Origin: Verrucomicrobiota bacterium
Lineage (GTDB): Bacteria > Verrucomicrobiota > Verrucomicrobiia > Verrucomicrobiales > DEV007
Length of the DNA stretch: 64,000 nucleotides
Direction of reading: 5' to 3'
Assembly (NCBI GenBank): GCA_030625775.1
Contig: DAOUQC010000001.1
Span: forward strand, 1 to 64,000
Shown here: one piece after another, positions 3,497 to 6,362 of the stretch
Layout of the letters: each line of letters starts with the position of its first letter
Position numbering within the stretch: the stretch's first letter is position 1
Translations under genes and position numbers: made by a program
The notes under the pieces: model-generated
Databases searched by the model: none
Told to the model about the DNA's origin: nothing
The model's input: the letters and a program-made list of their open reading frames with translations, nothing else

Positions 3497-3617
3497 GATG
3501 ATAAATAGGTGATTGATTGAATCTAGCCACGCTGGGGAAATTCGCAATTATGGACTTGCGCGATGGCCAGCTTTGACGAGCATGAGAATTTGGTAAAAAC
3601 AACGAAGGGTGATCTTG

Positions 3618-4658
3618 ATGAGAGAATTAATACAGCATGTGAAAAACGGGTATGAGCTCAATGGAGATCAGGTAAGTACCGCGGGTGAGTTTCTATTGAA
3701 TGAAAAAACTTCCCCGGCAGATAAGGCGGATTTTTTGAGTGCGCTGGCGGTGAAGGGAGAGACCCCGGGGGAAATTGTCTCTTTTGTAGAGACTTTTCTC
3801 GATCGGGCGGTAGATCCGGGGCTTTCGCCGGAGCAATTGGATGGGCCGGTTCTTGATGTGTGCGGGACGGGAGGGGACAAGTTGGATTTGTTCAATATAT
3901 CAACAGCAACCATTTTTGTATTGGCCGCAGCGGGGGTGAAGGTGGTGAAACACGGCAATCGTGGCATCACTTCAAAAAGTGGTGGAGCGGACGTATTGGA
4001 GGCTTTGGGGATTCGAATTGATATGGCACCGGAAGAATTTGCCGAGTGTGTGAAACAGGTTGGGGTGGGCTTTTTGTTTGCTCCGATGTATCATCCGGCA
4101 TTTAAAGCGGTGGTTCCGGTGCGCAAGAGGCTGGCGGAGCGGGGACAGCGGACAATTTTTAATATTCTGGGGCCGCTGCTCAACCCAGTTCGGCCGGATT
4201 ACCAGGTAATCGGGGTTTTTGACGAGAATCTGGCACCGGTTTTTGCCGATATCCTTACTCGTTTGGGTAGGAAACAGGCTTGGGCTGTGCATGGGAAAAC
4301 GGCAGCGGGTGCGGGCATGGATGAAATGTCGGTTTGTGGGGCAACGGAAATTTGGAAAACCTGCGGTGGTGAAAAATCATCGCAAACGATTGAACCTTCG
4401 GACCTGGGTTTGGCGACCAGTGAAGTGGGGGATTTGAAGGGTGGCGATGCGACGGAGAATGCAGAACTGCTAAGGGGGATTTTGGCTGGGGAGTTGAGCG
4501 GAGCCAAGCGGGACATGGTGCTGCTGAATGCAGCGGCAGGATTGGTGGTGACGTGCAAGGCCCCGGATTTGAGCGAAGGCTTGGCCTTGGCTGCGGAGCA
4601 AGTGGATAGTGGGGCGGCGATGACGGTGCTGGAGAAGTGGCGGGATTTTGGTGTTTAG
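3618..4658 (+). CDS. trpD: Anthranilate phosphoribosyltransferase
   Basis: Catalyses transfer of phosphoribose from PRPP to anthranilate, the second committed step of tryptophan synthesis. The protein has 346 residues, the normal length. The PRPP-binding 'GTGGD' lies at about residues 83-87, 'KHGNRGITSKSGGADVLEALG' at 111-131, and 'RTIFNILGPLLNPVRP' follows. The ATG at 3618 was preferred to the GTG at 3609 because AAGGG sits about 8 bp before it. No other trp gene is next to it, so the pathway genes must lie elsewhere. A cluster of perfect palindromes begins just after the stop codon. Confidence 0.96.
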   Translation: MRELIQHVKNGYELNGDQVSTAGEFLLNEKTSPADKADFLSALAVKGETPGEIVSFVETFLDRAVDPGLSPEQLDGPVLDVCGTGGDKLDLFNISTATIFVLAAAGVKVVKHGNRGITSKSGGADVLEALGIRIDMAPEEFAECVKQVGVGFLFAPMYHPAFKAVVPVRKRLAERGQRTIFNILGPLLNPVRPDYQVIGVFDENLAPVFADILTRLGRKQAWAVHGKTAAGAGMDEMSVCGATEIWKTCGGEKSSQTIEPSDLGLATSEVGDLKGGDATENAELLRGILAGELSGAKRDMVLLNAAAGLVVTCKAPDLSEGLALAAEQVDSGAAMTVLEKWRDFGV

Positions 4659-4679
4659 AATAATGGGGGCATTCGATCA

Positions 4680-4807
4680 ATCACATGCCATGTGATGTGG
4701 AACGGATTGCCAATCCGTTTCCTGGCGCACTTGCTGTGAATTGCGTGAACAAGAGTAGTTACGTATGCATGCAATGGCATGGCGTTTTACCTGTCAATGG
4801 CACGCAA
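4680..4807. repeat. Cluster of perfect inverted repeats downstream of trpD
   Basis: Three inverted repeats lie in the 267 bp gap after trpD. At 4680-4696, arms ATCACATG and CATGTGAT flank one C. At 4701-4719, arms AACGGATTG and CAATCCGTT flank one C. TTGCGTG at 4741-4747 can pair with CACGCAA at 4801-4807, enclosing a region with ATGCATGC. No T-tract follows, so a simple terminator is unlikely. A 64-codon open frame crosses the element but has no protein-like features. The element could be a short dispersed palindrome or a structured RNA. Confidence 0.7.
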
Positions 4808-4925
4808 CACAAAAGCACGAAGAATAGGTTGACCGCGAATTTCGAGGATGGGCTCAGGGGGCTAAAAAGATCGGGGTGATTTTTTTCAGGATTGAGTTAT
4901 AGTGGAGGAGAATCAGGCAAGGGAA

Positions 4926-6362
4926 ATGGCAATAAAAAAGGGCATATTTTTGACCATGAGCAATCAGCTGCAGCCGGTACTTGTGGGCTCTCTGATATCA
5001 GTCTTGATGGCTTCCATTTCCTGCCAGAAAGTCAGTGAGTTTTCTAGCCGTATTGCAAAGCGGGTGGCTGAAGCTGAGAAATCCGGTGAGGCGATGGAAG
5101 TGGTCGAACCCACTTTAATGGATTTGCTCGCCGATGAGCCTTTCACCGTCATCCCGCCCCCGCCAAAAGAGGTGGTGAAAAAGACTGTGATCAACAAGGA
5201 CGCTCAGGTATCCATTCTCGGGTATCACGATTTCACCGAGGGGGTGTCGAGCAAGCAGATGGTTCTCAATATCGATAAGTTTCGTGAGCAGTTGCAGATG
5301 ATCAAAGATTCTGACCTGCCGGTGATCGGCATGCAGGATTTTCTCGCTTGGCGACGAGGTAAAAAAAACATCCCGGACCAGTGTGTGATGATCACCATTG
5401 ACGATGGTTGGAAGGCTACCCACACTTTGGCTTTGCCGGTATTGAAAGAATTCGGCTATCCCTTCACACTTTTTTTATACAAAAAATATGTAGGCATCGG
5501 AGGGCGCTCTTTGACTTATGAGCAAGTGAAAGAAATCATGGCGGCTGGCGGAGTGATCGGCAGTCATAGTGTAAGCCATCAGAGCATGTTGCAGGGAGAC
5601 CGCAGTGATGAGGATTATGCGGTCTGGCTCGATGTGGAATTCAAAGAGTCCTATGATTTTCTGATGGAAAATTTTGCTGAGCACGGCACGGTGATGAAGG
5701 TATTTGCCTACCCTTATGGGATCTACAGCAATCAGGTGGCTGAGAAAGGAAAAGCAGTGGGTTATGATTTGCTGTTCACGGTGAATCAGCAAAAAACCAA
5801 TTGGGATTCTCCGGCAGCTGAGCTTGGTCGTTATATGGCTTATGGCACAAGCAGTGCTAATTTCACCCAGGCATTGACTTTCAAGGGAGCGACGATGCTT
5901 GCTTCGGGACGGCGCCTGATGGTGGCTCCTGGAGGAAAGGAGAAGAATGGAAAAAAGGAGGCCCCTCTAGTGACGACCCGCCCGGCAGACGGGGCGAAAA
6001 TTGCTGCTCGTCTGCCATTAATCGAAATGAATGTGTCCAGATTAACAGGTGTGGATTCAGAAAGCATACGTATGCGGGTGTCCGGTCTCGGAGAGGTGCC
6101 GCATGAATATGACGCCGCTGCCGGCGTGATAAGATATCAGGTGCCGCAACGCTTGAGAAACAAAGATTGTTTGGTGCAAGTGGTGCTCAGTCATGAAGGC
6201 AGTGCGAAACCCGAGGTGATTGCGTGGAAGTTCCAGGTGGATCTGGCGGCTGATTATTTGCCGCAAAAGGAGTTGCAGCTGAAGGCAAAACCGGTAAGAG
6301 GCATTATTGAGCCGGAGGGTGTAGGGGCGAAGGGGGCAAAAACGGCAGCGGTGTCGAAATAG
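4926..6362 (+). CDS. Exported polysaccharide deacetylase (NodB domain)
   Basis: Carbohydrate esterase family 4 type enzyme, expected to remove N- or O-acetyl groups from a cell-surface or environmental polysaccharide. The N-terminus has a basic start, a hydrophobic segment and a cysteine at about 33 that may be lipidated ('MASISC', not an ideal lipobox). The NodB domain starts at about 95: metal/catalytic aspartates in 'TIDDGW' (about 159-160), 'HSVSH' histidines (about 214 and 218) and 'FAYPYG'. A C-terminal region of about 130 residues looks like a beta-sandwich accessory domain. The frame opens at a GTG at 4902; the ATG at 4926 gives a better signal peptide. Confidence 0.88.
   Translation: MAIKKGIFLTMSNQLQPVLVGSLISVLMASISCQKVSEFSSRIAKRVAEAEKSGEAMEVVEPTLMDLLADEPFTVIPPPPKEVVKKTVINKDAQVSILGYHDFTEGVSSKQMVLNIDKFREQLQMIKDSDLPVIGMQDFLAWRRGKKNIPDQCVMITIDDGWKATHTLALPVLKEFGYPFTLFLYKKYVGIGGRSLTYEQVKEIMAAGGVIGSHSVSHQSMLQGDRSDEDYAVWLDVEFKESYDFLMENFAEHGTVMKVFAYPYGIYSNQVAEKGKAVGYDLLFTVNQQKTNWDSPAAELGRYMAYGTSSANFTQALTFKGATMLASGRRLMVAPGGKEKNGKKEAPLVTTRPADGAKIAARLPLIEMNVSRLTGVDSESIRMRVSGLGEVPHEYDAAAGVIRYQVPQRLRNKDCLVQVVLSHEGSAKPEVIAWKFQVDLAADYLPQKELQLKAKPVRGIIEPEGVGAKGAKTAAVSK

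Follow-up and report, generated by a model that had tools for sequence, protein, structure and literature searches.

The window, by which we mean the whole stretch of 64,000 nucleotides analysed here, carries a predicted trpD gene followed by a cluster of inverted repeats and then by an open reading frame that probably encodes a polysaccharide deacetylase (Table 1). The nearest records to TrpD come from Verrucomicrobiota MAGs, at 83% and 81% identity, and most others are from Verrucomicrobiales at no more than 61%. A sequence-only reading of this DNA had described behind trpD two perfect palindromes of 17 and 19 bp with single C centres, 4 bp apart, and a third, longer-range pair. We verified the two perfect palindromes at 4680-4696 and 4701-4719, the gap between them being GTGG (4697-4700). 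The third pair does not hold up: its end at 4807 points to TTGCGTG (4741-4747) and CACGCAA (4801-4807), a weak 7-bp match across a 53-bp gap that falls below the 8-bp limit of our dyad search in the window. The true third dyad is a decayed inverted REP at 4769-4790, which takes in part of ATGCATGC (4765-4772), a word that had already been noticed. The three palindromes do not represent a single repeated unit: one of them is a well-formed REP, another is single-copy, and the third had been misplaced.

Table 1. Coordinates of the features at and around the repeat cluster behind trpD
Feature	Position	Strand	Remarks
Predicted trpD (anthranilate phosphoribosyltransferase)	3609-4658	+	Upstream of the element; gene name taken over from the earlier reading; relatives by tblastn
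First palindrome, ATCACATG-C-CATGTGAT	4680-4696	.	Perfect, 17 bp, single C centre; abuts the dimer
REP dimer (REPIN-like), two inverted REPs, heads outward (HH)	4697-4790	+	Stem centres 4710 and 4777, 67 bp apart
Head tetranucleotide GTGG (GTAG-type tag) of first REP	4697-4700	+	Same position as GTAG/GTAA/GTGG in other copies
Second palindrome, AACGGATTG-C-CAATCCGTT, = first REP stem-loop	4701-4719	+	Perfect, 19 bp, single C centre
Second REP, inverted, decayed; stem AACGCCATG-C-CATTGCAT	4769-4790	-	GTAA head (TTAC at 4787-4790); found by motif scan
ORF, probably polysaccharide deacetylase	4902-6362	+	3' of the element; assignment read from the sequence

Perfect palindromes with a one-base centre and arms of at least 8 number 4 in 184 kb of the window's contig, where five Markov-1 copies have 2-5, and 4 in 120 kb of contig C77, where such copies have 1-3. 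A single palindrome of such size is therefore ordinary, since the Markov copies have about one per 55-57 kb and the real sequence is similar; two of them within 22 bp would, at that Markov rate, be unexpected. The earlier statement that the arrangement exceeds chance is borne out for the second palindrome as a repeat, because its 17-bp core occurs at 93 sites within 3 mismatches in the 4.88-Mb genome (8 of them exact) against 6 for the reversed control, but it fails for either palindrome taken alone, each being at the chance rate.

With the flank TCTAC attached, the core has 53 matches (23 forward and 30 reverse, some sites on both strands) compared with 0 in the control. Copies share a layout of a one-sided 4-base head and, after it, a 9-bp stem whose centre is a single base, and 7 of the 8 exact core copies, which were found without any head requirement, have GTAG, GTAA or GTGG on one side. 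We collected 57 REP-like centres, dropped 5 that were headless and kept 3 weak-headed ones by hand. The heads among the 52 copies kept are GTAA (23), GTAG (21), GTGG (3) and others (5), and the resulting share of 47/52 with one of the three is partly the product of selection, a head score of at least 3 having been one of two ways to be kept. A head score of at least 3 was likewise found in 23 of 26 perfect TGNCA-core palindromes listed without a head filter, although part of the sequence searched had been chosen by patterns that include a head. None of the REP-like centres collected has GTAG, GTAA or GTGG on both sides.

There are two dominant stem classes, AACGGATTG and AACGCAATG. The letters of the stem vary in a coordinated way at pairs 5 and 7: of 39 distinct copies, 20 have A-T and 19 T-A at pair 7, and 20 have G-C and 15 C-G at pair 5. 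Stem positions are paired in 89% of cases, whereas 1000 shuffles average 74% and reach at most 79%. The 89% is inflated and no independent test because copies with more than 2 mismatches were left uncollected; the collection of centres required a TGNCA core and tolerated no more than 2 stem mismatches, a restriction that pushes up the pairing and head figures alike. Independent compensating events are few, since such changes mostly separate the two stem classes.

A scan with a general REP motif, GTRRNACGSAWTGNCAWTSCGT, allowing up to 3 mismatches, returned 73 REPs from 493 kb, where a Markov copy gave 1; the 493 kb are a non-random sample: 304 kb of it are 184 of the 188 kb of C91 and 120 of the 132 kb of C77, where the scan gives 5 REPs, and the remainder was chosen around matches, some of them found by head-bearing patterns. 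Neighbouring REPs within 110 bp of each other are arranged as 24 HH pairs (heads outward), 8 TT pairs (heads inward) and 0 HT pairs (tandem), so that HH makes up 24/32. Seventeen of the HH pairs have their stem centres 29-48 bp apart, 6 have them 65-71 bp apart, and in 1 the distance is 100 bp. Forty-nine of the 52 REPs fall outside ORFs of at least 120 aa, compared with 87% of random positions in the same sequence that fall inside.

The motif has 3 matches in the window where 0.11 are expected. One is at 4697-4718 on the plus strand with 0 mismatches and one at 4769-4790 on the minus strand with 2; the other, at 4702-4723 on the minus strand with 2, is the palindrome of the first REP read on the opposite strand. 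The core search also places the second REP at 4770-4790, with 3 mismatches. As single-stranded DNA the stem-loop of the first REP folds at -6.8 kcal/mol, and 0 of 200 shuffles are as stable, whereas the second REP must be considered degenerate because its fold is no better than that of shuffles (30/200 as good). Set beside a REPIN, the window copy has the two inverted REPs with their heads outward, but its two REPs are not both intact, and with its second REP decayed it is probably inactive. Its 67-bp centre spacing lies outside the commoner 29-48 bp class and groups with the 68-71 bp of four dimers around a transposase gene and the 65 bp of a dimer on contig C19. Compared by eye, its spacer and that of the array beside this transposase gene are not conserved beyond the first bases, and no target-site duplication was noticed at the one site inspected, also by eye.

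Taken together, we put the probability at roughly 0.9 that positions 4697-4790 are a non-autonomous, probably mobile element of the studied REP/RAYT kind, made of two inverted REPs with GTGG and GTAA heads outward. The earlier suggestion of a dispersed palindromic element is correct for this dimer, which has dozens of relatives in the genome, and incorrect for 4680-4696, which is single-copy. Single occurrence without covariation, which had been named as grounds for giving up that suggestion, likewise applies to the first palindrome, with its one copy, and not to the second, which has many copies and stem variants that keep the pairing. The odd triple dyad is explained as a REP dimer and a neighbour.

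The nature of that neighbour deserves separate consideration. Searching for the first palindrome in its own genome returns the palindrome itself and one site with 2 mismatches, and other copies with fewer than 2 mismatches are absent from the window's genome (G000) and from G001, G002 and G007, four genomes that represent the genus and the family. We think that it is most likely a chance neighbour of the dimer; it is possibly a diverged REP. It abuts the dimer head exactly and has the TGCCA core in common with the REP stems, and REP dimers of some genomes are described as lying within palindromes in the accessible text of PMC3733652, points that would suit a reading of the first palindrome as a diverged third REP, or as a site at which the dimer prefers to land, such that the triple dyad forms one unit. 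This reading is nevertheless improbable, because the first palindrome has no GTAG-like head on either side, is single-copy in the four genomes apart from 2-mismatch sites, and is an exception among the 24 HH dimers: a palindrome (arm at least 6) in the 30 bases beyond the left head is seen for the window dimer alone, and on the right for one other dimer. Palindromes as general landing sites of dimers were also considered and set aside, as a scan of the flanks of these 24 gave no pattern.

The position of the dimer, which starts 38 bases past the trpD stop, and the ability of the first REP and the first palindrome to fold (with DNA parameters) might instead indicate a transcription terminator or mRNA-end hairpin of trpD, conserved for that function. 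We regard this as very improbable. A scan for terminator-like sites (GC-rich stem and T run) at 4500-5000 found 0, with 0.4 in shuffles, and the earlier remark that this is not a normal terminator was sound. At locus C20 a T-run hairpin that is kept in a sister genome adjoins a REP but is, by eye, separate from it, and trpD of two relatives from the same genus (L132 and L133) is followed, over 420 bases, by neither a REP, at up to 5 mismatches, nor a palindrome with arms of at least 7. A structured RNA, which had been offered as the other possible explanation, was rejected: positions 4000-5500 match no Rfam family at E values up to 1, and folding the whole region 4655-4910 as RNA gives a z of 0.10, with 107 of 200 shuffles as good.

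Near-perfect, mostly intergenic palindromes with one-base centres could also be expected of a two-fold symmetric site for a DNA-binding protein, repeated as a regulon. We find this hardly credible, given that the head is one-sided, that copies occur as HH pairs and as a tandem array beside a transposase gene, that stem letters vary while the pairing stays, where constant letters would be expected of a protein site, and that convergent gene ends hold 17 of 48 scored copies, which is unexpected for promoter control. Under the preferred reading of a REP dimer, trpD mRNA, if affected at all, would be so only incidentally.

Seven Y1-transposase matches are present in the genome. One is a RAYT-type gene at C10:2750-3451 (minus strand, 234 aa), which lies between REPs, among them a tandem array (131 bp, 3.3 units), and thus has the structure of a REPtron, a RAYT gene flanked by REPs. 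Its own locus is the only match to its sequence in the genome. The protein matches NCBIfam NF047646 (REP-associated tyrosine transposase) with an E of 4e-18 and 65.7 bits, below the cut-off of 80. The six further Y1-transposase-domain genes (on C37, C110, C61, C35, C82 and C77) have open frames of 344-381 aa; two of them were scanned, and both match the same model below its cut-off, at 50.8 and 61.3 bits. Because these two match nearly as well, it is by position that the REPs are linked to the C10 RAYT. REPs of the window family, at up to 3 mismatches, are absent from the 1.8 to 3.3 kb scanned around each of the six other Y1 genes.

The C10 protein contains NHVH and YIGRNP, corresponding to the HUH motif and Y---NP of class-2 TnpAREP (signature from the accessible text of PMC6006769), and a W...DR..R pattern at positions reported there as conserved in GTAG-reading RAYTs. 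It resembles subclass 2.7 of TnpAREP/RAYT, as far as this is described in that text, in NHVH, in the W94-D100-R101-R104 spacing, in Y---NP, in its length of 234 aa and in the REPs on both sides, its residues having been placed by our own reading without alignment to the E. coli protein. It differs in having R, not Q, after the tryptophan and YIGRNP in place of the published YI[LR][NQ]NP; moreover, subclass 2.7 is said there to go with long canonical REPs, whereas the stems here are short and perfect. We had considered that the C10 RAYT might lack a catalytic tyrosine (ESFD versus ESYD in some relatives), an idea that was dropped because the tyrosine, according to PMC6006769, is the one in Y---NP, a motif that this protein has. 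Searching PDB sequences with the C10 RAYT returned one weak match (E 0.39) to a TPR-region protein, which we take to be unrelated.

REPs are reported to be processed as a single strand by TnpAREP, with which they co-evolve (Corneloup et al. 2021, PMC8266576, accessible text). By analogy, the family described here was probably spread by the C10 RAYT transposase, and the window copy may have arrived by the same route. When a strand is single, for example during replication, the RAYT, with its HUH motif and tyrosine, would read head and hairpin, cut beside them and join the strand elsewhere, leaving inverted pairs in intergenic DNA; both the catalysis and the cutting site are what we infer for this protein from such systems.

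GTAG REPs have been defined by head, stem, dimers and RAYT linkage, and the available text reports them from Opitutus terrae (Verrucomicrobia) and states that most heads of one family are GTGG (Di Nocera et al. 2013, PMC3733652). The repeats described here agree with that account in their one-sided GTAG/GTGG-type head, a stem within the reported 5-13 bp, complementary substitutions and a short loop, and also in the predominance of HH dimers with partners mostly 20-100 bp apart, an intergenic location and a RAYT nearby. Head and stem together come to 23 bp, within the 20-40 bp of a GTAG-type palindrome present in many copies; the head is at one end only (GTGG in the window copy), and most copies are extragenic. 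GTAA heads are common here, by contrast, where the accessible part of PMC3733652 names other head variants. The likeness is one of description, drawn from the features listed above. An inverted REP doublet, the REPIN, has been proposed as the spreading unit (Bertels and Rainey 2011, PMC3116915), and inverted REP doublets are present here too; in contrast to the REPINs of the accessible text, there are here two spacer classes and tens of copies only, and the window copy is decayed on one side. These findings fit published REP/RAYT systems, and the window element is a decayed member of such a REP family. They add a REP/RAYT family to the Verrucomicrobiota, where the full-text literature on the REP-associated tyrosine transposase is sparse, although the family may still have been published.

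Among 57 genomes, our own included, core sites with at most 1 mismatch number 29 in G000, 26 in G002 of the same genus and 2 in G001, which is also of the same genus and is 73% complete. The other 54 genomes have 0-4 sites each, and any site at all is found in 11/57. Relatives of the C10 RAYT protein occur in 37/57, again including our own. The RAYT protein is widespread, and high copy numbers of the window REP stem are confined to one genus. In another family of the same order, five genomes (G043, G047, G049, G052 and G055, genus g19) have 1-4 palindromes within 1 mismatch of the core, and 0 in controls, mostly with other centres such as ACGGATTGTAAATCCGT; these are perhaps a distant REP family.

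The heads differ between the two REP-rich genomes. In G000, GTAA heads all ten REPs listed around the C10 RAYT. In G002, a RAYT fragment at C64:6262-6657 (L202), 69% identical, has REPs close behind it; those readable next to it have, by eye, GTGG heads, as do 22 of the 30 REPs listed for that genome, a listing that required a head score of at least 3. The residue after the conserved tryptophan is arginine (W-R) in the G000 RAYT and the usual glutamine (W-Q) in the G002 RAYT, and residue 95 (Q) is among those contacting the head in E. coli, according to the accessible text of PMC8266576. That the head tetranucleotide switched between the sister species together with the transposase is a tentative idea and on balance unlikely: only two genes are compared, the G002 one is cut by a contig end and has one internal TAA stop, and elsewhere in G000 GTAG is as common as GTAA (21 and 23 of 52). 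The species difference in head and transposase residue would be a small case of recognition change and, if the idea were true, the G000/G002 pair could show a natural change of the head-reading code.

Three orthologous sites were compared in G001 and G002, and at one of them, in G002, the REP is clearly absent: at C42 the two genes that flank the G000 REP are contiguous in G002. At C20, G002 keeps both genes and the terminator-like hairpin, and where the REP would be it has a REP-like remnant that lacks a head and has 5 mismatches, so the C20 REP may be old and decaying and not newly inserted; in G001 the flanks of this site are on different contigs. At C91:66802 the G002 flanks are on different contigs, and in G001 the left flank alone was found, with a possible remnant by eye. 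Such differences between sister species could be gains or losses. The trpD locus itself is no clean empty site, since the sequence behind trpD in both same-genus relatives differs too.

Other repeats were encountered along the way. Just after trpD, L132 and L133 have words like ACGGATTTCACGGATGAA and CGCGGATGAACGCGGATAA, perhaps another dispersed repeat. Site C42 in G001 (L226, C235) has, by eye, a different GTAG-headed, GC-rich palindrome, GTAG GGATGTGCGG...CGCACGTCC, with the inner perfect dyad GTGCGGCCCGCAC. In G000, the 21 bp at C77:70977-70997 form a perfect palindrome, GGGCCTGCGA-G-TCGCAGGCCC, with CTAC behind it (a GTAG head when read on the opposite strand); this may represent a second REP family of the genome, one rich in GC.
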